A stretch of DNA of 64,000 bases from Crossiella cryophila (GTDB lineage: Bacteria; Actinomycetota; Actinomycetes; Mycobacteriales; Pseudonocardiaceae): NCBI RefSeq assembly GCF_014204915.1, contig NZ_JACHMH010000001.1, positions 2,666,001-2,730,000 on the forward strand, read 5' to 3'. The notes beneath the pieces are model-generated. The model worked only from the letters and a program-made list of their open reading frames with translations, made no database searches and was not told the origin of the DNA. This document shows, piece after piece, positions 4,589-51,692 of the stretch. How positions within the stretch are numbered: the first letter of the stretch is position 1; every line of letters begins with the position of its first letter. The position numbers were made by a program, and so were the translations under genes.

Positions 4589-5854
4589 TCAGAGGCCGAG
4601 GGCCTCGCGGACCGCGGCGGCTGACGGGGGAACGGTGGCGCGCGGGCCGATCCGGTCCTGCACCGCGTCCAGGGTCTTGAGGCCGTCGCCGGTGATCAGC
4701 AGGACGGTTTCGGCGTCCGGGTCGAGCTGGCCGGTCTCGATGAGCTTCTTGGCCGTCGCGACGGTCACGCCGCCCGCGGTCTCGGCGAAGATGCCCTCGG
4801 TGCGGGCGAGCAGCCGGATGCCCTCGACCACCTCTTCATCGGAGACGTTCTCGATGGAGCCGTTGGTGCGGCGGACGGTGTCGAGCACGTACGGGCCGTC
4901 GGCGGGGGCGCCGATGGCCAGGGAACGGGCGATGGTGTCCGGCTTGACCGGGGTCACCACGTCGTGGCCTGCCTTGAAGGCGGCGGCGACGGGGGAGCAG
5001 CCGGTGGCCTGGGCGCCGAAGACGCGGTACGGGGACTGCTCGACCAGGCCCAGTTCGCCCAGTTCGCGGAAGCCCTTGTCGACCTTGGTGAGCTGGGAGC
5101 CGGAGGCGATCGGCACCACGATCTGGTCCGGCAGCCGCCAGCCGAGCTGCTCGGCGACCTCGTAGCCCAGGGTCTTGGAGCCCTCGGCGTAGTAGGGCCG
5201 GACGTTGACGTTGACGAACGCCCAGTCCTCGTGGTCCGCGGCCAGTTCGGTGGCCAGGCGGTTCACGTCGTCGTAGTTGCCGTCGACGGCGATCAGGGCG
5301 CCGTCGTACACGGCGGTGGTGAGGATCTTGGCCCGTTCCAGCGAGGACGGGATCAGCACGACCGACTCCCAGCCGGCGCGAGCGGCGGCCGCGGCGACGG
5401 CGTTGGCCAGGTTGCCGGTGGAGGGGCAGGCCAGGACCTTGAAGCCCAGCTCGCGGGCGGCGGCCAGGGCCACCGCGACCACGCGGTCCTTGAACGAGTG
5501 GGTGGGGTTGCCGGTGTCGTCCTTCACCCAGATCCGGCGGACGCCCAGTGCCTTGGCCAGGCGGTCCGCGCGGACCAGCCTGGTACAGCCGGGGTCGGTG
5601 TTCGGGTGGGCGTCCACAGTGGACGGCACGGGGAGCAGGTTGCGGTAGCGCCAGATCGACTGCGGGCCGGCTTCGATGTCCTCCCGGCGGACGGTCCCGA
5701 AGTCGTAGCCGACCTCAAGGGGACCGAAACACTCGGAACAGGCGAACTCGGCGGCGAGTGGGACCTGGTGGCCGCACTCCCGACAGACCAGGCTGCGCGC
5801 CGGGCCGAGGTCAAGGGTCTGCTGGGCGCTGTTGGGCGCCTCGATGGTCGTCAT
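4589..5854 (-). CDS. thrC: Threonine synthase
   Basis: PLP-dependent enzyme converting O-phosphohomoserine to threonine, the last step of threonine synthesis. The 421 residues begin with a zinc-ribbon-like segment (C24, C27, C39, C42) and carry the PLP lysine at about 122 in the motif PTHSFKDRVV, plus SGSQLTKVDKG further on. The ATG at 5854 is preferred over one at 5872 because AGGAGAG lies eight bases ahead of it. The gene is alone here, convergent with comEC and divergent from holA, and is not in the usual hom-thrC-thrB cluster, so a second thrC may exist elsewhere. Confidence 0.93.
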   Translation of the reverse strand: MTTIEAPNSAQQTLDLGPARSLVCRECGHQVPLAAEFACSECFGPLEVGYDFGTVRREDIEAGPQSIWRYRNLLPVPSTVDAHPNTDPGCTRLVRADRLAKALGVRRIWVKDDTGNPTHSFKDRVVAVALAAARELGFKVLACPSTGNLANAVAAAAARAGWESVVLIPSSLERAKILTTAVYDGALIAVDGNYDDVNRLATELAADHEDWAFVNVNVRPYYAEGSKTLGYEVAEQLGWRLPDQIVVPIASGSQLTKVDKGFRELGELGLVEQSPYRVFGAQATGCSPVAAAFKAGHDVVTPVKPDTIARSLAIGAPADGPYVLDTVRRTNGSIENVSDEEVVEGIRLLARTEGIFAETAGGVTVATAKKLIETGQLDPDAETVLLITGDGLKTLDAVQDRIGPRATVPPSAAAVREALGL

Positions 5855-6108
5855 CGCGAGGTCTCTCCTCATCTTTCCCGCTGGCGCGGGGCGGATTTGG
5901 CACCGTGTTCACCTGCTCCCTCGCGGAATACGCGTCGAGCCTGTGCCGGTTGCCGGGGTGTCGTAGGGCCGATCCCTCTACCCCTCTGGATGAGCTGTAT
6001 TCAGTTGTCTGCGACTCACCGTACGGCACGGTCGCCACTGAGAGCTACCGTCAGCCCAGTATGCGGGAGCCCGCGGGGCTGTCAGACCCCCGTGAAAGGA
6101 TTGCCGAC

Positions 6109-41820: not shown

Positions 41821-42588
41821 TTAACCCACTAAAGTCGTGATGTTGCGCCGTTCGGCGGCACACGCCTCGGCATAGCGGTGCAGCACCAGCTCGGCCACCT
41901 CGGGGTCGTCACCGAGTGGTTGGGCCACTACGGTGTCCAGCCCGCCTGCCAGTGCCGCGGCCGCCACCCGGTCCGGCAGCAGACCGGGGGCCAGGAACCA
42001 GGAGGCCAGCGCGATCCGTTGCGCGCCACGGGCTTTCAGTCGCGCGAGGGCGGTGGGCACGTCCGGTTGGGTGCTGGCCGCGAAGGCGGGCTCCACCCCG
42101 GCCCAGCCCGCGCCGAAGGACCAGCGGCGGGCGAGCTGGTGCACGGCGGCGTTGGCCGGGGCGTGCGAGGAGCCCGCACCGGCCAGCACCACACCGAGTT
42201 TTCCGTCCCCTGGCAGGGCTCCGGCCGCGGCCAGCCTGCGCAGCGCGGCCGATTCCAGCCGGGGGTCGGGGCCGAGCACGTCGGCGATGCGCACCGACAG
42301 CCGGGGCAGCCGGGTCACCGTCTCGGCCACCGCGCCGGGCACGTCCACCTTGGCGTGGTAGGCCCGGCCGAGCAGCAGTGGCGCCACCACGACCTCGCGG
42401 TGGCCCTCGTTGTGCAGTCCGGTCAGCACATCGCCAAGGCGTGGCGCGGACAGGTCAAGGAAGGCCACCCGCACGTCCAGGCCCGGCCGCAGCGCGCGGA
42501 CCACGGTGACCAGCTCGTGCACGGTGGCCGCCGAACGCGGGTCGCGACTGCCGTGCGCGAGTGCCACCAACGGGATCCGGCTGTTCAT
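41821..42588 (-). CDS. Sirohydrochlorin chelatase-like protein (CbiX/SirB family)
   Basis: A 255-residue two-domain type II chelatase inserting iron or cobalt into sirohydrochlorin. Candidate metal-binding His are His12 in LAHGSRDP, one in GRAYHAKVDVP, and one in AGSSHAPANA. The last gene of the sulfur operon, it probably supplies siroheme for the sulfite reductase encoded first. Its ATG overlaps the permease stop by one base. Confidence 0.88.
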   Translation of the reverse strand: MNSRIPLVALAHGSRDPRSAATVHELVTVVRALRPGLDVRVAFLDLSAPRLGDVLTGLHNEGHREVVVAPLLLGRAYHAKVDVPGAVAETVTRLPRLSVRIADVLGPDPRLESAALRRLAAAGALPGDGKLGVVLAGAGSSHAPANAAVHQLARRWSFGAGWAGVEPAFAASTQPDVPTALARLKARGAQRIALASWFLAPGLLPDRVAAAALAGGLDTVVAQPLGDDPEVAELVLHRYAEACAAERRNITTLVG

Positions 42589-43472
42589 CACACCGCCGCC
42601 GCCAGGCCGCGGGCACGCAGCACGGCGCGCTCCAGTGGACGGAAGAACAGCAGTTCCACCCCGATGCCCACGGCCAGGATGAGCAGGATCGCCGCGATCA
42701 CCAGCGACATGTCGGTGAGCTGACGGCCCTCCTCCAGCATCTGCCCGAGGCCGATGCCCAGGTCGGGGGAGCGGGCGATGATCTCCGCGGCCATCAGCGA
42801 CCGCCAGGAGAACGCCCAGCCCTGCTTGAGCCCGGCCAGATAACCGGGCAGCGCGGCGGGTAGCAGCACGTGCCGGGCCGACTGCAACCGGCCGGCGCCG
42901 AGCACCGTGCCCACCCGCAGCAACAACGGTGGCACCTGGTCGATCCCGGCGACCAGGCCGTTGGCGATGGAGGGCACCGCGCCCAGCAGCACCACGGCGT
43001 AGATCATCGAGTCGTTCAGGCCCAGCCACAGCAGCGCGGCAGGCACCCAGGCCACCGAGGGCAGGCTCTGCAACCCGCTCAGCAGCGGCCCGATCGCCGC
43101 GCGCACCAACGGGATCCGGGCCACCAGCAGGCCAAGCGGGGTGCCGATGGCCACCGCGGCGAGGAAGCCGAGCACCGCGCGGTGGGTGGAGACCCACAGC
43201 GTTTCCCAGGCCCGGCCATCCAGCAGTCGTTCCCACAGCACGCCGGCCACGGTGAGCGGGGAGGGCAGCTTGTACTCGGGCTCGATCGCCGAGGCCCAGA
43301 ACAGCTGCCACACCAGGATGATCAGCGCGAGCGCGACCAGCGGGGGCAGCGCGGTGCTCGCGAACCGCCGCCACCCGCCGGTCGAGCGCGGTGGCGGCGG
43401 CGCGTCCAGTGCGTCCAGGCCCGCTTCGAGCGCGGCCAGGTCCGGGCTGGACTTGGCTTCAGGCGCGGCCAT
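42588..43472 (-). CDS. ABC transporter permease, sulfonate/taurine type
   Basis: A 294-residue inner-membrane protein with about six helices and the binding-protein-dependent EAA-like loop (GAGRLQSARHVLLPAALPGYLAGLKQGWAFSW). It is of the SsuC/TauC type. It overlaps the ATPase gene by 14 bases. Confidence 0.9.
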   Translation of the reverse strand: MAAPEAKSSPDLAALEAGLDALDAPPPPRSTGGWRRFASTALPPLVALALIILVWQLFWASAIEPEYKLPSPLTVAGVLWERLLDGRAWETLWVSTHRAVLGFLAAVAIGTPLGLLVARIPLVRAAIGPLLSGLQSLPSVAWVPAALLWLGLNDSMIYAVVLLGAVPSIANGLVAGIDQVPPLLLRVGTVLGAGRLQSARHVLLPAALPGYLAGLKQGWAFSWRSLMAAEIIARSPDLGIGLGQMLEEGRQLTDMSLVIAAILLILAVGIGVELLFFRPLERAVLRARGLAAAV

Positions 43473-44247
43473 GGCTGGAGATCACCTCCCGCAGGTGGCC
43501 GGTGATCTCCTCGGTGAGCTTGTCGGTGTCCTGCTCGGTGATCTGCCACTCGCGCACCACCCGGCCGGGCCGGGAGGACAGCAGCACCACCCGCTGACCC
43601 AGCCGCACCGCCTCGCGCACGTCGTGGGTGACGAACAGCACCGCGGTGCCGGTCTGCGACCAGATCCGGCGCAGCTCGCCCTGCAGCGCGTCCCTGGTGA
43701 TCGCGTCCAGCGCGGCGAAGGGCTCGTCCATGAGCAGCAACGGGTTGCCGCCCTCGGCCTCGTCCAGGGTGGTGGCCAGCGCACGGGCCAGCGCGACCCG
43801 CTGGCGCATGCCGCCGGAGAGTTCGTGCGGGCGCTTGCGGCCGACCTCGGCCAGCCGCACCAGGTCCAGCAGCCTGGTCGCGGCGGCGGCGCGTTCGGTC
43901 CGGCCGAGTCCGCGCAGCCGCAGCGGCAGTTCCACGTTGCGCGCGGCGGTGAGCCACGGCATCAGCGCGGGCTCCTGGAAGACCACCGCGGGCCGTCCAC
44001 TGTGGACGGAGACGGTGCCGGTGCTCGGCTTGTCCAGTCCGGCCACCAGGTTGAGCAGGGTGGACTTGCCGCAGCCGGAGGCGCCGAGCAGGCAGACGAA
44101 CTCGCCGGGGCGCACGGTCAGGTCGACCCCGTCCAGCGCCACCACCGTGTTCGTGCCTCGGCCGAAGGACTTGCTGACGTTGTCCAGGTGCACCACCGCG
44201 TCCCCGACGTGGCCGGACGGGCGGGTGTGTTCCAGAGTCGCGGTCAT
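43459..44247 (-). CDS. ABC transporter ATPase, sulfonate/nitrate type
   Basis: A 262-residue ATPase. Walker A GASGCGKSTL, signature LSGGMRQRVALARAL, and Walker B LLLMDEPFAALD are all present, with the H-loop FVTHDVREA. It is of the SsuB/TauB/NrtD type and works with the neighbouring permease and binding protein. Confidence 0.93.
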   Translation of the reverse strand: MTATLEHTRPSGHVGDAVVHLDNVSKSFGRGTNTVVALDGVDLTVRPGEFVCLLGASGCGKSTLLNLVAGLDKPSTGTVSVHSGRPAVVFQEPALMPWLTAARNVELPLRLRGLGRTERAAAATRLLDLVRLAEVGRKRPHELSGGMRQRVALARALATTLDEAEGGNPLLLMDEPFAALDAITRDALQGELRRIWSQTGTAVLFVTHDVREAVRLGQRVVLLSSRPGRVVREWQITEQDTDKLTEEITGHLREVISSHGRA

Positions 44248-44257
44248 CGCCGTGCCC

Positions 44258-45349
44258 TCACTTTCCGTCGAGTCCGGACGCGTCCACCCCGGGCAGGCCC
44301 GCGGCCTTGAGCGCGTTGTTGAGCGCGGCCAGGTCCACCAGGCCCTTGAGGTCGAACTCCTGCTTGGCCACCCCGGCGGCCACGGCGTCCTTGGACAGCT
44401 TCGGGAAGGTGCCGGCTGCCGGGTCGGTGGTGAAGGAGATCTGGCTGAACGCCCGCTCCAGCACCGGTTCCGGCAGTGGCTTGCCCGCGTACTTGCCCAG
44501 TGCGGCGTTGACCGTCTTCTTGGCCTCGGCCGGGCTGTCGGTGAGGTATTTGGTCGCGGCGACGTGCCCGCGCAGCAACGCCTGCACGGTGGCCGGGTGC
44601 TTCTGCGCGAACTCGGTGCGCACGATCAGCACCGTGGTCGGGAACTTCCCGCCCGGCCACAGGTCCCGCTCGTCCACCAGCACCTTGCCGCCGGCTTCCA
44701 GCACCAGCCGGGAGGACCAGGGCTCGGGCAGCCAGCCGCCGTCGAGCTGACCGGTGCGGAAGGCGTCGAAGGTCTGCGGATTCTCCGTGTTGGCGATCTT
44801 GACGTCCTTGCCGCCGGTGGTCTCCACCTTCAGCCCGTGCCCGGCCAGCCAGGCCCGCAGCGCCACATCCTGGGTGCCGCCGAGCTGTGGGGTGGCGATG
44901 CTCTTGTCCTTGAGGTCCTGCGGACCGTTGATCTCCTTGCGCACCACCAGTTGCGCGCCGCCGGTGGCCGCGCCCGCGATCAGCCGGACCGCCTTGCCGT
45001 TGGACTTGGTGAAGGCGTTGATGGTCGGGTTGGGACCGATGAAGGTCGCGTCAAGGGACCCGGCCAGCAGCGCCTCCACCGCGGAGGGACCGGCGTTGAA
45101 CGCCTGGGTGCTCAGCTTGGTGCCGCCGAGTTCCTTGGCGATGAACTTCTTGTCCTCGTCGATGCCGACCAGGGCCGGGGCGTGCGTGACGTTCGGGAAG
45201 AACCCGAGCCGCAGTTCCGCCGCCGGACCGGAGTCATTGGCCGAGGCGGTGGATTCGGCTGCCCTCGAGCAGCCGCTGACCGCGGCGATCAGCGCGGTGA
45301 CGGCGAGCACTGCGGGCAGGACGCGATGACGGCGTCGCGGGGTACGCAC
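44258..45349 (-). CDS. ABC transporter substrate-binding lipoprotein, sulfonate type
   Basis: A 363-residue binding protein. The signal ends in a lipobox with Cys about 27 (AVSGCS). The fold is that of the SsuA/TauA/NMT1 family (LRLGFFPNVTHAPALVG, IGPNPTINAFTKSNG, WLPEPWSSRLVLEAGG). It is probably for sulfate esters or sulfonates, given its place in the cys operon 32 bases after cysN. Confidence 0.9.
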   Translation of the reverse strand: MRTPRRRHRVLPAVLAVTALIAAVSGCSRAAESTASANDSGPAAELRLGFFPNVTHAPALVGIDEDKKFIAKELGGTKLSTQAFNAGPSAVEALLAGSLDATFIGPNPTINAFTKSNGKAVRLIAGAATGGAQLVVRKEINGPQDLKDKSIATPQLGGTQDVALRAWLAGHGLKVETTGGKDVKIANTENPQTFDAFRTGQLDGGWLPEPWSSRLVLEAGGKVLVDERDLWPGGKFPTTVLIVRTEFAQKHPATVQALLRGHVAATKYLTDSPAEAKKTVNAALGKYAGKPLPEPVLERAFSQISFTTDPAAGTFPKLSKDAVAAGVAKQEFDLKGLVDLAALNNALKAAGLPGVDASGLDGK

Positions 45350-45381
45350 GGGGTTCCTCCTGGAGACAAAGGGAAAGAAGG

Positions 45382-46719
45382 CTAGGGGCCGGGCGAGACG
45401 AGGGCTCGGTCGTCGGCGGTCGCGCCGCCGAGTCCGGTGTCCTCGTTGACATCCGGGATGGGCAGTGGAGCGCCGATGAGACCGGCGGCCAGGGTGGCGC
45501 CGTCGTTCGGGTCGATCACGAGGAAGGACCCGGTGCGCCGGCTGCTGGTGTACTCATCAACCGGCAGCGGCTCTGCTGTCCGGATGAGCACTCGGCCAAT
45601 CTCGTTGAGCTGCAACGAATCCGGCGTATCCACAGTGGACAGGCGCTGTTCGTCGAAGCGGTCGGCCAACTCGGTGACGATGGCCGGGACGGTGCGGGTG
45701 CCGTGTTTGATCAGGACACGGGCGTTGGGGAGCAACGGTTTCTCGGCCAGCCAGCAGACGGTGGCGTTGAGTTCGTCACTCACTGCTGGATATTGTTCCG
45801 CGCCCGCGATCAGATCGCCACGGGAGATGTCCAAATCGTTGTCCAGCAACAGGGTCACCGATTGACCGGCGCCCGCTTCGGACAGTTCGCCGTCCGCGGT
45901 GTCGATCCGGACCACGGTGCTGCGCAGGCCGGCGGGCAGCACGATGATCTCATCGCCCGGCCGCACCACCCCGGCCGCCACCTGGCCGGCGTAGCCGCGG
46001 TAGTCGGGGTACTCCGGCGTGCGCGGCCGGATTACGTACTGCACCGGGAACCGGAACGGCACGTCATGCGGATCCGGTTGCACCGGAACGGTTTCCAGGT
46101 GCTCCAGCAGGGTCGGACCGGTGTACCAGGGGGTGCGTTCGGAGCGGTCCACCACGTTGTCGCCGACCAGCGCCGACACCGGTACGGACACCACCGAGGA
46201 CTCGGGGTAGCCCAGTGCGTTGGCGTGTGCCAGGAACTCCTTGGCGATCAGCCCGAACCGGTTCTCGTCGTAGTCGATCAGGTCGATCTTGTTCACGGCC
46301 AGCACGAGCTGGGGCACGCCGAGCATGGCCAGCACGGCGGCATGCCGCCTGGTCTGCTCGATCACGCCCTTCCTGGCGTCCACCAACAGGATCGCCAGCT
46401 GCGCGGTGGACGCGCCGGTGACCGTGTTGCGGGTGTACTGCACGTGCCCAGGGGTGTCGGCGAGCACGTAGCTGCGTCGCGGGGTGGCGAAGTAGCGGTA
46501 GGCCACGTCGATGGTGATGCCCTGCTCACGTTCCGAGCGCAGGCCGTCGACGAGCAGGGACAGGTCCGGTGTGGACAGTCCCCGGTCGACGCTGGCCCGC
46601 TGCACGGCTTCGAGCTGGTCGGCCAGCACGGATTTGGTGTCGTACAACAGGCGGCCGACCAGGGTCGACTTCCCGTCGTCGACGGATCCGGCGGTGGCCA
46701 GCCTCAGCAGGTCGGTCAT
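45382..46719 (-). CDS. cysN: Sulfate adenylyltransferase subunit 1 (GTPase)
   Basis: GTPase subunit of ATP sulfurylase (445 residues) that drives adenylylation of sulfate. GTP motifs: GSVDDGKST (about 11-19), DTPGH and NKIDLIDYDE. The protein ends without an APS-kinase domain, so it is CysN rather than a CysNC fusion. ATG overlaps the cysD stop by one base. Confidence 0.95.
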   Translation of the reverse strand: MTDLLRLATAGSVDDGKSTLVGRLLYDTKSVLADQLEAVQRASVDRGLSTPDLSLLVDGLRSEREQGITIDVAYRYFATPRRSYVLADTPGHVQYTRNTVTGASTAQLAILLVDARKGVIEQTRRHAAVLAMLGVPQLVLAVNKIDLIDYDENRFGLIAKEFLAHANALGYPESSVVSVPVSALVGDNVVDRSERTPWYTGPTLLEHLETVPVQPDPHDVPFRFPVQYVIRPRTPEYPDYRGYAGQVAAGVVRPGDEIIVLPAGLRSTVVRIDTADGELSEAGAGQSVTLLLDNDLDISRGDLIAGAEQYPAVSDELNATVCWLAEKPLLPNARVLIKHGTRTVPAIVTELADRFDEQRLSTVDTPDSLQLNEIGRVLIRTAEPLPVDEYTSSRRTGSFLVIDPNDGATLAAGLIGAPLPIPDVNEDTGLGGATADDRALVSPGP

Positions 46720-47630
46720 CAGAAGTAGCCCTCTCGCTTCCGGTCTTCCATGGCCGCTTCGCTGAGCCGGTCGTCGGCGCGGGTGGCGCCGCGTTCGGTG
46801 AGCCGGGAGGCGGAGACCTCGGCGATCACCGCGGCCAGATCGGCAGCCTCGGACTCGACCGCCCCCGTGCAGGAGCCGTCGCCGACCGTGCGGTAGCGGA
46901 TCACCTTGCGCTGCACCGTTTCCCCGGGCTTCGGACCGCCCCACGGACCCTCGGTGAGCCACATGCCGTCCCGCAGGTAGACATCGCGCTCGTGCGAGTA
47001 GTAGATCGAGGGCAGCTCGATGTTCTCCCGGTCGATGTAGCGCCAGATGTCCAGTTCGGTCCAGTTGGACAGCGGGAAGACCCGGACGTGCTCGCCGGGG
47101 CGGTGCCGTCCGTTGTAGAGGTTCCACAGCTCCGGCCGCTGCCGCTTGGGCTCCCACTGGCCGAAGGCGTTGCGCAGACTGAAGATGCGCTCCTTGGCCC
47201 GAGCCCGTTCCTCATCCCGCCGCCCACCGCCGAAGACCGCGTCGAACTTGTGCGCGGTGATCGAGTCGAGCAACGGCACGGTCTGCAACGGGTTGCGGGT
47301 GCCGTCGGGTCGTTCGGTGAGCCGTCCGTCGTCGATCCAGTCCTGCACGTGCGCGACCTCCAGCCGCAGCCCGTGCTTGGCGATGAGGTCGTCCCGGAAG
47401 GAGATGACCTCCTCGAAGTTGTGCCCGGTGTCCACGTGCAGCAGGGTGAAGGGCACCGGCGCGGGCCAGAAGGCCTTGAGCGCCAGGTGCACCAGCACCG
47501 TGGAGTCCTTGCCGCCGGAGAACAGGACCACCGGCCGGTCGAACTCCCCGGCCACCTCGCGGAAGATGTGGATCGCTTCCGATTCCAGTGCCGTGAGATT
47601 GTCCTGTGCCTGAGGCAGTGTGCTCGTCAT
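46719..47630 (-). CDS. cysD: Sulfate adenylyltransferase subunit 2
   Basis: Catalytic subunit of ATP sulfurylase (303 residues) forming APS from ATP and sulfate. The PP-loop is SGGKDSTV (38-45), with VDTGHNFEEVISFRD and EGPWGGPKPGETVQRKVIRYRTVG near the end. The ATG has GGGGGA directly upstream. Together with CysN it feeds CysH. Confidence 0.96.
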   Translation of the reverse strand: MTSTLPQAQDNLTALESEAIHIFREVAGEFDRPVVLFSGGKDSTVLVHLALKAFWPAPVPFTLLHVDTGHNFEEVISFRDDLIAKHGLRLEVAHVQDWIDDGRLTERPDGTRNPLQTVPLLDSITAHKFDAVFGGGRRDEERARAKERIFSLRNAFGQWEPKRQRPELWNLYNGRHRPGEHVRVFPLSNWTELDIWRYIDRENIELPSIYYSHERDVYLRDGMWLTEGPWGGPKPGETVQRKVIRYRTVGDGSCTGAVESEAADLAAVIAEVSASRLTERGATRADDRLSEAAMEDRKREGYF

Positions 47631-47640
47631 TCCCCCGCCC

Positions 47641-48336
47641 TCATCCGTGCAGTCCGCACTCGGTCTTGCCCTGGCCCGCCCAGCGTCCGCTGCGCGGGTC
47701 GGCGCCCGGCAACGGTTTCGCCGTGCAGGGCGCACAGCCGATGGACGGATATCCCGCGCCCACCAACGGGTTCTCCAGGATGCCGTGCTCGGCGATGTAG
47801 GCGTTGAACTCCTCGTCGGTCCAGGCGGCGATCGGGTTGATCTTGACCAGCCCGTTGCGCTCGTCCCAGCCGACGATCGGCGTGTTCGCCCTGGTCGGCG
47901 CGTCCACCCTGCGCACGCCGGTGACCCAGGCGTCATAGCGGGACAGCGTGCGCTGCAACGGGATCACCTTGCGCAGCGCGCAGCAGCGATCCGGCGCCCG
48001 CTCGAACAGGTTCGGCCCGTGTTCGGCGTCCTGCTCCGGCACGGTCTGATCGGGCAGCGCGTTGACGATCGTCAACGGGTACACCGACTCGACCGCGTCC
48101 CTGGTGCCGATGGTCTCGGCGAAGTGGTACCCGGTCTCCAGGAACAGCACGTCGAACCCGCTGACCACCTTGGCCGCCAGGTCGATCAGCACCGCGTCCT
48201 GCATGTTCGAGGCCAGGATCCACCGGTTGAGCGGGAAGGTCTCGGCCACCCAGGTCAGCGATTCGAGCGCGGTGGCCTCGGCCAGTTCGTCCGCGGCCCG
48301 CTCGGCCAGCGACTTGAGGTCGGTCACCGCGCTCAC
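47641..48336 (-). CDS. cysH: Adenylylsulfate (APS) reductase, iron-sulfur type
   Basis: Reduces APS to sulfite and AMP (231 residues). The cysteine pairs C118-C119 (DRCCALRK) and C201-C204 (SIGCAPCTA) bind the [4Fe-4S] cluster of APS-using enzymes, and the C-terminal catalytic Cys227 lies in TECGLHG. The cluster explains why no cysC is needed. GTG 48336 has GGAGG seven bases upstream and overlaps the zinc-ribbon stop codon. Confidence 0.95.
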   Translation of the reverse strand: MSAVTDLKSLAERAADELAEATALESLTWVAETFPLNRWILASNMQDAVLIDLAAKVVSGFDVLFLETGYHFAETIGTRDAVESVYPLTIVNALPDQTVPEQDAEHGPNLFERAPDRCCALRKVIPLQRTLSRYDAWVTGVRRVDAPTRANTPIVGWDERNGLVKINPIAAWTDEEFNAYIAEHGILENPLVGAGYPSIGCAPCTAKPLPGADPRSGRWAGQGKTECGLHG

Positions 48337-48491
48337 CGGATCACCTCCACCGGGCGTCGCAGGCCGACGAACTTCAGCGAGAACACCCGCTGGCAGCCCG
48401 TGCAGCCCCACGCCCCGTGCGGTTCCTCCTGCGGGCGCAGGTCCTCATCCCCGCAGTAGGGGCAGTAGAACGGCGTGGCTCGTTCGCTCAT
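48333..48491 (-). CDS. Small CxxC/CxxC zinc-ribbon-like protein of the sulfur operon
   Basis: A 52-residue protein: FYCPYCGDEDL (C10, C13) and WGCTGCQRVFSLKFVGL (C30, C33). The two CxxC pairs suggest a zinc ribbon or small iron-sulfur site. It lies between sulfite reductase and cysH with 4-base overlaps on both sides. A similarly placed small gene exists in the Streptomyces cys operon. It may serve electron transfer or regulation; the function is unknown. Confidence 0.85.
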   Translation of the reverse strand: MSERATPFYCPYCGDEDLRPQEEPHGAWGCTGCQRVFSLKFVGLRRPVEVIR

Positions 48492-50173
48492 CGCAGATCC
48501 GCCTCCTCCGCGCGGGCCGCCCACTGGGCGAACCGCTCGCCGTCGGTGCGCTGGGCCACGAAGTTGCGCGCCACCCGCTCCACGTAGTCGCCGAGTTCGG
48601 CGCTGGTCACCTTGTGGCCACGCAGTTTCCGGCCGAATCCGGCGTCCAGGCCGAGCCCGCCGCCCAGGTGCACCTGGTAGCCCTCGACCTGCTGGCCCTC
48701 CCCGTTGGTCACGATCTGGCCCTTGAGCCCGATGTCCGCGGTCTGGATCCGGGCGCAGGAGTTGGGGCAGCCGTTGATGTGCACGCTGATCGCGGACTCG
48801 GCCAGGGTGTGCTGCACGTCGGCGAGCTGCTTCTCCAGCTCGTCCACCAGCCGCGCGGCCCTGGCCTTGGTCTCCACGATGGCGAGCTTGCAGAACTCGA
48901 TCCCGGTGCAGGCCATGGTGCTGCGCCGCCACGGCGAGGGCCGGGCGTGCAGACCGAGGCCGGCCAGCTCGTCCACCAGGGTGTCCACTTCGGACTCGGC
49001 GACGTCGAGCACGACCAGTTTCTGCTGTGCGGTCAACCGGACCCGGCGCGAGCCTGCCCGTTCCACCGCCTTGGCCACCTCGACCAGGATCGAGCCGGAG
49101 ACCCGCCCGGCGATCGGCGCGACCCCGATGTAGAACTTGCCGTCCTTCTGCGGGTGCACCCCCACGTGGTCGATCGGCCCTGACGCGGGCGGCGCGACCC
49201 CGTCGAGCAGCTTGCGCTTGAGGAACTCCGTCTCCAGCACCTCGCGGAACTTGTCCACACCCCAGTCGGCGATGAGGAACTTGATCCGGGCCCGGTGCCG
49301 CAGCCGCCGGTAGCCGTAGTCGCGGAAGAGGCTGATCACGCCCTCCCACACGTCCGGCACCTCATCCCGCGGCACCCACACGCCGAGTCGCTTGGCGATC
49401 ATCGGGTTGGTGGACAGCCCGCCGCCGACCCACAGGTCGAAGCCGGGCCCGTGCTCGGGGTGGTCCACGCCGACGAAGGAGATGTCGTTGACCTCGTGCG
49501 CCACGTCCTGCACACCGGAGATGGCGCTCTTGAACTTGCGCGGCAGGTTCGAGTAGGCCGGGTCGCCGATGTAGCGCTTGACGATCTCGTGGATGGCCGG
49601 GGTGCCGTCGATGATCTCGTCGGCGGAGATCCCGGCCACCGGCGAGCCCAGCACCACCCGCGGGCTGTCCCCGCAGGCCTCGGTGGTGGACAGGCCGACG
49701 CCCTCGATCTTCTCCCAGATCGTGGGCACGTCCTCGATCTGGATCCAGTGGTACTGGATGTTCTGGCGGTCGGTGATGTCGGCGGTGTCCCGGCCGTAGG
49801 TCTGGGAGATCTCGCCAAGCACCCGCAACTGCTCGGTGCTCAGCGCGCCGCCGTCGACCCGGACCCGGAGCATGAAGTACTCGTCGTCCAGTTCCTCCGG
49901 TTCCAGCACGGCGGTCCGCCCGCCGTCGATGCCGGGTTTGCGCTGGGTGTAGAGGCCATACCAGCGAAAGCGCCCGCGCAGATCAGCCGGGTCGATCGAG
50001 GCGAAGCCGCCATGGGCGTAGATGTTCTCGATCCGGGCCCGCACGTTGAGCGGGTTGTCGTCCTTCTTCGAGCGCTCGTTCGGGTTCAGCGGCTCGCGGT
50101 AGCCCAGCGCCCACTGCCCTTCACCGCGGCGCGCTTTCGCGGCCCGCGCCGGGGGAGAGGTTGGGGGGACCAT
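48488..50173 (-). CDS. sirA: Ferredoxin-dependent sulfite reductase (SirA-type)
   Basis: Siroheme/[4Fe-4S] enzyme reducing sulfite to sulfide (561 residues). Cluster cysteines are in STMACTGIEFCKLA and NGCPNSCARI. A Tyr in WYGLYTQRKPG and Cys167 in TEACGDSPR correspond to the Tyr-Cys crosslink described for the M. tuberculosis enzyme. The ATG at 50173 has GGAGG seven bases upstream. It is the first enzyme gene of the nine-gene operon, preceded by a leader peptide. Confidence 0.95.
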   Translation of the reverse strand: MVPPTSPPARAAKARRGEGQWALGYREPLNPNERSKKDDNPLNVRARIENIYAHGGFASIDPADLRGRFRWYGLYTQRKPGIDGGRTAVLEPEELDDEYFMLRVRVDGGALSTEQLRVLGEISQTYGRDTADITDRQNIQYHWIQIEDVPTIWEKIEGVGLSTTEACGDSPRVVLGSPVAGISADEIIDGTPAIHEIVKRYIGDPAYSNLPRKFKSAISGVQDVAHEVNDISFVGVDHPEHGPGFDLWVGGGLSTNPMIAKRLGVWVPRDEVPDVWEGVISLFRDYGYRRLRHRARIKFLIADWGVDKFREVLETEFLKRKLLDGVAPPASGPIDHVGVHPQKDGKFYIGVAPIAGRVSGSILVEVAKAVERAGSRRVRLTAQQKLVVLDVAESEVDTLVDELAGLGLHARPSPWRRSTMACTGIEFCKLAIVETKARAARLVDELEKQLADVQHTLAESAISVHINGCPNSCARIQTADIGLKGQIVTNGEGQQVEGYQVHLGGGLGLDAGFGRKLRGHKVTSAELGDYVERVARNFVAQRTDGERFAQWAARAEEADLR

Positions 50174-50249
50174 GGTCCGACCTCCGGGATTCGAGGCGGC
50201 CGTGCGCACCGTCGAAGCCCCAGGTTTCACATGGTGGGAAGGGGATCTT

Positions 50250-50274
50250 CAGCCGGGACGCCCGTCGCCGGCTG
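50250..50274 (-). promoter_or_regulatory. Hairpin between the leader peptide and sirA
   Basis: CAGCCGG (50250-50256) pairs with CCGGCTG (50268-50274), loop 11. Placed 24 bases after the leader-peptide stop and about 77 bases before sirA, it could be part of a cysteine-responsive attenuator. Alternative pairings were not computed. Confidence 0.45.
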
Positions 50275-50297
50275 GTCAAGAGAAATGCAGCGGCCGA

Positions 50298-50390
50298 CTA
50301 GACGTACTGTCGGCAGAGCGCGCTGGAGACGCGCAGGTAGTCCACGTGGCGGCGAGCCACGAGGACAACACGGCGTCCAGGCGAGGTCAT
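50298..50390 (-). CDS. Cysteine leader peptide of the sulfur operon
   Basis: A 30-codon ORF, too short for standard calling, ending ARRHVDYLRVSSALCRQYV. This matches the actinobacterial 'putative leader peptide' consensus RRHVDLxRVxSAxC, found upstream of sulfur and cysteine genes. It has one Cys codon (residue 26). Cysteine-responsive leader peptides with attenuation upstream of sulfur genes are described in mycobacteria. Its stop is 124 bases upstream of sirA. The ATG lacks a strong ribosome-binding site, consistent with a leaderless start. Confidence 0.82.
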   Translation of the reverse strand: MTSPGRRVVLVARRHVDYLRVSSALCRQYV

Positions 50391-50474
50391 GTGGACCAGC
50401 GTGCCACGCGTCCCCCGATGGGTCTACCGCCATCCGCATAGTGGGATAACGAGACGGATTGAGACACTGCTGTT

Positions 50475-51692
50475 ATGCCCTCTGCACTTCCCGACGGCGA
50501 TCCGGCGCCGCAGGACGGCGCGCTGCCCGCCGCCGCCCTGACCGGCCTGGGTTCCCGCCCGTTCGGGCTGTACGTCCACGTGCCGTTCTGCGCCACCCGC
50601 TGCGGCTACTGCGACTTCAACACCTACACCCCCGGTGAGCTGGGCAGTTCCGCCTCCCCGCAGTCCTGGCTGGCGGGGTTGCGGCGGGAGCTGGAACTGG
50701 GCGCGCGGGTGCTGGGCAGCCCACCGGCCGCGGACACCGTGTTCATCGGCGGCGGCACCCCGTCCCTGCTCGGCGCGGACGGCCTGGCCACGGTGCTGGG
50801 CGCGATCCGGGACACCTTCGGCCTGGCCCCCGGCGCCGAGGTGACCACCGAGTCCAACCCGGAGTCCACCTCCCCGGAGTTCTTCGCGGGCATCCTGGCC
50901 GCCGGCTACACCCGGGTCTCCCTCGGCATGCAGTCCGCCGCCCCGCACGTGCTCCAGATCCTGGACCGCACGCACACACCGGGCCGCGCCCGAGCCGCCG
51001 CCAAGGAAGCACGGGCCGCCGGCTTCGAGCACGTCAACCTCGACCTCATCTACGGCACCCCCGGCGAACGCCCCCAGGACCTGGCCGAATCCCTGGACGT
51101 GGTCCTGGACGGCGGCGTCGACCACGTCTCCGCCTACGCCCTCATCGTCGAGGAGGGCACCGCCCTGGCCCGCCGGATCAGCCGCGGCGAACTGGCCAAC
51201 ACCGACGACGACGTCCTCGCCGAACGCTACGAACAGGTCGACCAGACCCTCCAGCGCGCGGGCCTGACCTGGTACGAGGTCTCCAACTGGGCCACCGACG
51301 ACGCCGCCCGCTGCCGGCACAACCTCGGCTACTGGCTCGGCGGCGACTGGTGGGGCGCGGGCCCCGGCGCGCACAGCCACGTTGGCGGGGTGCGCTGGTG
51401 GAACGTGAAGCACCCGAGCCGGTACGCCGCGCTGCTGGCCGAGGGGCACTCGCCCGCGGCCGGACGGGAGACGCTGACCGCGGCCGACCGGGACGTCGAG
51501 CGCATCCTGCTGGAGTTGCGGCTGGTGGAGGGGCTGCCGGTGGACGTGCTGGATCCGGCAGGGCGGGCGGAGGCGCGGGTGGCGGCGGCGGACGGGCTGC
51601 TGGATCCGGCGAGCCTGGACGGCGGGCGGTGCGTGCTGACCGACCAGGGCAGGCTGCTGGCCGACGCGGTGGTCCGGCGCCTGGTGCCCTAA
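50475..51692 (+). CDS. hemW: Radical SAM heme chaperone HemW (HemN-like)
   Basis: A 405-residue radical SAM protein. The [4Fe-4S] motif is CATRCGYC (C39, C43, C46), followed by GGGTPSLL and the HemN-C domain. HemW transfers heme to target proteins, and genes of this type were earlier called coproporphyrinogen oxidases. It is divergent from the sulfur operon and convergent with the Rv2375-like gene, overlapping it by four bases. Confidence 0.93.
   Translation: MPSALPDGDPAPQDGALPAAALTGLGSRPFGLYVHVPFCATRCGYCDFNTYTPGELGSSASPQSWLAGLRRELELGARVLGSPPAADTVFIGGGTPSLLGADGLATVLGAIRDTFGLAPGAEVTTESNPESTSPEFFAGILAAGYTRVSLGMQSAAPHVLQILDRTHTPGRARAAAKEARAAGFEHVNLDLIYGTPGERPQDLAESLDVVLDGGVDHVSAYALIVEEGTALARRISRGELANTDDDVLAERYEQVDQTLQRAGLTWYEVSNWATDDAARCRHNLGYWLGGDWWGAGPGAHSHVGGVRWWNVKHPSRYAALLAEGHSPAAGRETLTAADRDVERILLELRLVEGLPVDVLDPAGRAEARVAAADGLLDPASLDGGRCVLTDQGRLLADAVVRRLVP

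Follow-up and report, generated by a model that had tools for sequence, protein, structure and literature searches.

In the tna operon of E. coli, a ribosome held at the stop region of the TnaC leader blocks the loading of Rho. Mycobacteria reportedly carry polycysteine leaderless short ORFs, which are said to have been described by Canestrari et al. in 2020. The available excerpts of PMC9031893 and PMC13236596 cite short ORFs of this type in M. smegmatis as attenuating translation in response to cysteine, and the excerpt of PMC9094748 predicts the same attenuation for six ORFs of M. tuberculosis. Runs of Cys codons are stressed in the accessible portions of PMC9031893 and of PMC1262725, in which Seliverstov et al. 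(2005) treated the leaders of actinobacterial cys operons.

The leader analyzed here lies upstream of sirA in the soil actinobacterium Crossiella cryophila. It is predicted to be a ribosome-mediated, cysteine-responsive attenuator at which the ribosome stalls at a Cys codon, a reading to which we assign a probability of about 0.78. Stalling is inferred because the leader belongs to a known family. Of particular interest are the conserved peptide, the preference of the family for TGT at the sensor codon, and perhaps a divergent readout.

The leader and its operon

The window is the whole 64-kb stretch of C. cryophila DNA that was analyzed, part of a 10.06-Mb single-contig genome, and positions refer to it. 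The short minus-strand ORF claimed in a preliminary description exists, with 30 codons whose translation is MTSPGRRVVLVARRHVDYLRVSSALCRQYV. The features of the locus are as follows.

50298-50390, minus strand: leader peptide ORF, 30 codons, with one Cys codon (TGC) at codon 26 and the stop codon TAG
50313-50315, minus strand: candidate sensor codon, Cys TGC, codon 26 of the leader, followed by four codons and then the stop
50398-50403, minus strand: -10-like hexamer CACGCT, 7 nt before the leader start codon, which implies a leaderless transcript
50181-50185, minus strand: Shine-Dalgarno sequence GGAGG of sirA, preceding the ATG at 50173-50171
48488-50173, minus strand: sirA, the first operon gene, of the nitrite/sulfite reductase family
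41821-48491, minus strand: remaining operon genes, with the low coordinate set where the CbiX-carrying ORF ends

Reading of the sequence revealed no Shine-Dalgarno sequence before the leader start codon. The start of sirA is most likely the ATG behind GGAGG, which leaves a 124-nt spacer between it and the leader stop. The gene order is sirA, a 52-amino-acid CxxC ORF, cysH, cysD, cysN, an SsuA-like binding protein, an ABC ATPase, a permease, and a CbiX-type chelatase, and we infer that these nine genes are cotranscribed as one sulfate/sulfonate operon. A Radical_SAM gene diverges from the leader/sirA side at 50475; it is called hemW after an annotated record from Tsukamurella, in which hemW and sirA diverge. 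The 52-amino-acid ORF (48333-48491, minus strand), which lies between sirA and cysH and overlaps the end of sirA, has a CxxC...CxxC arrangement that looks like a zinc ribbon by eye. Elsewhere in the window, a SAM riboswitch (RF00162, 74.9 bits) lies at 5866-5996 on the minus strand, upstream of an ORF (4589-5872, minus strand) that resembles threonine synthase by eye; a SAM riboswitch ahead of threonine genes is reported for S. lividans in the available part of PMC8079986.

The resemblance to a leader-peptide consensus that had been pointed out for this ORF is not a chance match. Residues 8 to 26 aligned with positions 1 to 19 of the NCBIfam model NF042934 ("cis_reg_atten") at 29 bits, above the cut-off of 27 (27.5 bits for the same leader in a search of the whole genome), and a purpose-built 14-residue profile gave 46.4 on the leader strand versus 6.9 when the other strand of this region was scored. 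The family was already known, as had been stated, since NCBI has this model for it. An Rfam search of the leader yielded 0 matches at gathering score, and the four at E ≤ 10 were far below theirs. On sequence grounds, the Crossiella leader is a genuine, well-conserved regulatory leader that adds a member to a recognized peptide family.

Occurrence of the leader

Homologues of sirA were found in all five genomes of the genus (C. cryophila included) and in 126 of 150 genomes of the same order. These amounted to 132 sirA places (5 in the genus and 128 in the order, with the C. cryophila genome counted once), and upstream DNA was read for the best-ranked 114. With our own profile, on which the leader core was aligned, a leader was present upstream of sirA in 106 of the 114 regions and in 79 of 80 named actinobacterial loci, including those of Streptomyces, Kribbella, Nocardia, and Rhodococcus; the two sets overlap in part, and the loci are related, so that these counts are not independent. 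The eight regions in which the profile found no leader were L051, where the contig ends 7 nt upstream of sirA, L078, with 392 nt of upstream DNA, L057, L091, L097, L098, L109, and L122, and the single miss among the named loci has 98 nt of upstream DNA. Two of the matches were weak (L052 and L115), and L037 has Gly in place of the core Cys. Such conservation of the leader is far beyond chance. The model NF042934 is insensitive: of 149 genomes sampled across the phylum, 7 scored over its cut-off.

In 19 of the 114 upstream loci, the opposite strand carries an additional leader of this family in divergent orientation, with profile scores of 27 to 42 (L082, L084 to L087, L089 to L093, L097, L098, L100, L103, L107, L109, L111, L121, and L122). 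In L091, L097, L098, L109, and L122, the divergent leader was the only one found, with none on the sirA side.

An A...T hexamer was located 6 to 7 nt before a possible start in 106 of 106 leaders, compared to 89 of 2,148 other ATG or GTG codons, although the first count is somewhat favored because the leader start was picked among in-frame ATG and GTG codons by the presence of a -10 hexamer. The leaderless geometry was also seen in 78 of the 79 leaders of the named set. These positions point to leaderless transcripts throughout the family. Within the order, many loci from several families have a TGTGGCA-like stretch at about -16 to -8 that overlaps the -10 hexamer; it is possibly an extended -10 element or a regulator site.

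Conservation of the peptide and codon usage

The core of the leader follows the pattern R-x-H-V-D-x-x-R-V-x-S-A-x-C, and the residues kept among the 106 leaders were R0 in 105, D4 in 106, R7 in 102, and C13 in 105. The last Cys lies 0 to 8 codons from the leader stop. Nucleotide information in the core was 1.27, 1.40, and 0.81 at codon positions 1, 2, and 3, respectively, which indicates that the frame is read as codons. For residues shared with sirA, the frequency of the same codon was 0.615 in the leader core versus 0.677 expected from sirA (34 loci with full sirA). This frequency was 0.56 in both for Arg, 0.50 versus 0.94 for Asp, and 0.45 versus 0.58 for Val, and the His codons of the core were as fixed as those in sirA. 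This pattern indicates that selection acts largely on the peptide, most clearly at Arg, Asp, and Val.

These data bear on the possibility that the conserved stretch is an untranslated binding site in DNA or RNA, or a chance ORF, which we consider very improbable. Conservation is on average lowest at third codon positions, synonymous changes occur among the Arg, Asp, and Val codons of the core, and all 106 leaders have an in-frame start and stop. Some constraint at the nucleotide level may nevertheless exist, as the His codons are no more variable than in sirA and the Ser10 codon of the core is AGC in 89 of 92 leaders, compared to 133 of 679 Ser codons in sirA. No pairing partner for the Ser10 codon was found inside the core, and covariation inside the 51-nt core, which is a weak test, indicated weak, scattered pairing at most.

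One tRNA-Cys reads both TGC and TGT, the latter by wobble. The core Cys codon was TGT in 88 of 105 leaders, compared to 3 of 184 Cys codons in the 34 sirA genes; TGT made up 24 of 450 Cys codons in the sirA genes of the 80 named loci and 1 of 20 in a sample from the operon of the window. Relaxed codon bias alone fails to explain the TGT at the core, because other T-ending codons were less frequent in the same leaders (GAT in 39 of 106 and CAT in 14 of 93). Among the Cys codons outside the core, TGT accounted for 33 of 74, with 21 of 25 at the two codons that immediately precede the core Cys and 12 of 49 at the remaining ones. The leader of the window has TGC at the core Cys, as do 17 of 23 leaders of its family (f1) in the order set and 33 of the 79 named loci. 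That its single Cys codon is TGC rather than the commoner TGT counts against our preferred explanation. In the seven other candidate leaders of its own genome, one of which (L005) is doubtful, the core Cys codon was TGT in all.

Two to six Cys codons were present in 39 of 106 leaders, and 67 of 106, like the leader of the window, have one. In the titles and abstract openings of papers matched by text search, neither single-Cys sensing nor a UGU bias was seen for these leaders, which is not to claim that they are absent from print.

The strict conservation of the core suggests a further alternative, in which the leader acts as an arrest peptide: a sulfur metabolite, for example free cysteine, would make the nascent chain stall within the exit tunnel, and the ribosome would not simply be waiting for Cys-tRNA. 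The near-invariance of R0, D4, R7, and C13 with free choice of codons at Arg and Asp, the persistence of the core motif in leaders with Cys runs, and the prevalence of a single Cys codon are all consistent with this alternative, but the position of the Cys codon and the TGT bias point to decoding, and the motif may simply assist a tRNA-limited pause. We therefore regard a metabolite-sensing arrest peptide as unlikely.

Proposed mechanism and the spacer RNA

In the preferred reading, attenuation by stalling at the Cys codon, transcription would start at or beside the leader ATG, and ribosomes would load without a Shine-Dalgarno sequence, as judged from the position of the -10 hexamer. The ribosome would translate 25 codons and reach the single Cys codon, with four codons and the stop to follow. 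When Cys-tRNA is plentiful, the ribosome would pass, terminate, and leave, and expression of sirA and the operon would be low. When Cys-tRNA is scarce, it would stall at the Cys codon and alter the exposure of the 124-nt spacer, so that the operon would be expressed. The stall is probably reinforced by the conserved nascent peptide. The output step could be unmasking of the sirA Shine-Dalgarno sequence, as reported for mycobacteria, or the blocking of Rho; translation control seems somewhat favored because of the mycobacterial precedent.

Several elements of the spacer RNA could take part in such an output.

50250-50274, minus strand: CAGCCGG...CCGGCTG hairpin without a U-tract, the 3' arm (50250-50256) being arm 3 of the script
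50309-50314, minus strand: candidate arm 1, GCCGAC, overlapping the Cys codon and invariant in five Crossiella genomes
50293-50300, minus strand: candidate arm 2, TAGTCGGC, the stop codon and following bases
50193-50202, minus strand: alternative candidate arm 3, CGGCCGCCTC, hand-drawn and invariant in five Crossiella genomes

The preliminary description had given the CAGCCGG hairpin a part in attenuation. The hairpin is present, and visual inspection showed a like hairpin in the Crossiella relatives as well as in one sister genus (L014), but a switching role was not established: it has no U-tract, its formation depends on the stretch that is folded, one Crossiella genome of the five (L013) has a different 3' arm, and the best switch that uses this arm was only borderline compared to shuffled sequences. 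As a terminator the hairpin was ruled out, since it lacks a U-tract and no terminator-like site was detected in 50100-50520 (0 sites; mean of 0.2 in shuffles).

The full-length leader RNA folded better than shuffles (z, -3.5), and in this fold GAGGTC at the sirA Shine-Dalgarno sequence pairs with GACCTC of leader codons 1 to 3. The 124-nt spacer alone folded no better than shuffles (z, 0.6). A search for a three-helix switch, with 40 dinucleotide shuffles per locus, bulges disallowed, and spacers of 60 to 210 nt (79 of 97 loci), did not rise above shuffles over the 79 loci (10 of 79 at P ≤ 0.1). In four of the five Crossiella genomes, the best switch uses 50250-50256 (P of 0.07 for the window and 0.15, 0.05, and 0.07 for the others), and the fifth genome gave a different best switch (P of 0.32). 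Possible partners of the CGGCCGCCTC arm are arm 2 and, if a bulge is allowed, the Shine-Dalgarno region; the script, which was bulge free, did not score this arm as drawn. The switch in Crossiella is thus borderline compared to shuffled spacers and is not a general feature of the family.

The start of sirA with its Shine-Dalgarno sequence was assigned in 97 of 106 loci, the frame heuristic having failed for nine. Over these 97 loci, the predicted accessibility of the Shine-Dalgarno sequence rose by 0.013 when the footprint of a ribosome positioned at the Cys codon was masked, compared to 0.017 to 0.030 for four comparison masks. In this prediction, opening of the Shine-Dalgarno sequence was thus not specific to a ribosome at the Cys codon. 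Mutually exclusive hairpins of the kind for which folding had been suggested can be drawn in Crossiella, as alternating partners that would hide the Shine-Dalgarno sequence and be switched by a stalled ribosome, but neither of the two family-wide folding tests supported them. Pairing of the Shine-Dalgarno sequence was on average below shuffles in the whole locus set, and weaker than shuffles in the family of the window (11.3 versus 13.4). Of the larger families, f8 alone had a mean higher than that of shuffles (12.6 versus 10.5; 3 of 16 loci at P ≤ 0.1), a family read as Mycobacteriaceae from the similarity of its leaders to named loci.

The weak pairing of the Shine-Dalgarno sequence outside f8 favors a Rho-dependent output of the same sensor, in which the untranslated C-rich spacer would load Rho once the ribosome has left and a ribosome stalled over the stop region would block loading. 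Rho was proposed for mycobacterial cys leaders by Seliverstov et al. (2005), a prediction termed rather weak in the accessible part of that paper (PMC1262725). Among the 91 loci that remained when spacers of <40 nt were left out, the spacer after the stop contained more C than G in 90 (median C/G, 1.59), compared to 39 of 91 (median, 0.97) for the DNA upstream of the leader. C exceeded G in 24 of 43 other 5' regions (median, 1.07) from three annotated actinobacterial plasmids, a control smaller than it appears, as two of the three plasmids are close relatives. The excess also followed the stop in 77 of the 79 leaders of the named set, and C/G was at least 1.5 in 57% of 81 spacers versus 14% of 1,626 background windows. 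However, C is also in excess within the leaders (58 of 91; median, 1.13) and over the initial 90 nt of sirA (73 of 91; median, 1.19), the bias of the window itself is weak (C, 0.36, and G, 0.32, in the first 50 nt after the stop), C content is no reliable predictor of Rho sites, and little RNA past the stop is shielded by a ribosome that has halted at the Cys codon. A Rho-dependent output is therefore a tentative possibility.

The observations can also be joined in a broader proposal, in which one UGU codon, read slowly by wobble and placed after a conserved peptide that interacts with the tunnel, would make a sharp cysteine sensor whose readout has diverged, with hairpins that hide the Shine-Dalgarno sequence in Mycobacteriaceae-like loci, with Rho-type termination across a C-rich spacer in other loci, and with UGU swapped for UGC at sirA in Crossiella and many other Pseudonocardiaceae. 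We consider this proposal, taken as a whole, rather doubtful. If it were true, actinobacterial cysteine leaders would be more than codon counters. The comparison across the family makes the choices testable: codon supply alone or a conserved peptide, and unmasking of the Shine-Dalgarno sequence or Rho.

Other leaders in the same genome

Six places in the C. cryophila genome scored over the NF042934 cut-off, including that of the window; the other five were L002, L003, L004, L006, and L008. L005 and L007 are candidates found by similarity only. The downstream genes are as follows.

L002 (C1:3131688-3131753): protein without an NCBIfam match, helix-turn-helix-like by eye
L003: SsuC-like permease, below the curated cut-off
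L004: SsuA-like binding protein, below the curated cut-off
L006: dimethylsulfone monooxygenase SfnG, over the curated cut-off
L007: alkanesulfonate-monooxygenase-like enzyme, below the curated cut-off
L008: dicarboxylate-symporter-family transporter, below the curated cut-off

Four of the seven other candidate leaders precede genes of sulfur-scavenging type (the genes downstream of L005 are outside this tally). The genes behind L002 and L008 are not obviously of sulfur metabolism, which counts against the preferred explanation. The L002 leader has a promoter-like pair, TTGACA...TAGCGT, in the leaderless position. The sulfur operon of Crossiella would thus be placed, probably together with the four further loci, under one ribosome-based cysteine signal. 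Family membership, conservation, gene context, and the codon data lend good support to what was first suggested for this locus, a leader peptide with cysteine as its signal and the nine genes as its target.

Comparison with known systems

The Crossiella leader matched the 19-residue model NF042934 ("putative leader peptide") over its full length and above the cut-off. Its score with NF042936, the Cys-rich leader of the Ms4527A family, was 26.6 bits, below the cut-off of 45. It has in common with the mycobacterial polycysteine leaderless short ORFs a cysteine/sulfur operon downstream, the leaderless geometry, and the R-H-V-D...C core, but they carry a run of Cys codons and the Crossiella leader carries one. 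Its predicted transcription start is of the mycobacterial type, with CACGCT, a 7-nt gap, and no Shine-Dalgarno sequence. A helix hiding the Shine-Dalgarno sequence of the first gene stands above shuffles on average in f8, in contrast to the family of the window.

As far as the available portion of PMC1262725 goes, the actinobacterial cys operon leaders of Seliverstov et al. (2005) are also short ORFs upstream of cys operons, with Cys near the stop and no conserved terminator hairpin; they differ in having runs of Cys codons. The uORFC-8-2 motif upstream of cysS in Rhodobacterales is likewise a Cys-codon uORF attenuator, but according to the accessible text of PMC8632094, it has tandem, mostly UGC codons and an intrinsic terminator and belongs to another gene and another class. 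The intrinsic terminator that a classical transcription attenuator has between leader and first gene did not appear in the Crossiella region.

A TnaC-type leader with Rho and the Crossiella leader family share a regulatory residue near the stop and a C-rich spacer and have no sequence relation. The bias toward C-rich, G-poor RNA after the stop that is expected of Rho-dependent attenuators is strong in the leader family and weak in the window. With regulatory arrest peptides, the leader family shares conservation at the amino acid level of the C-terminal 15 to 20 residues.
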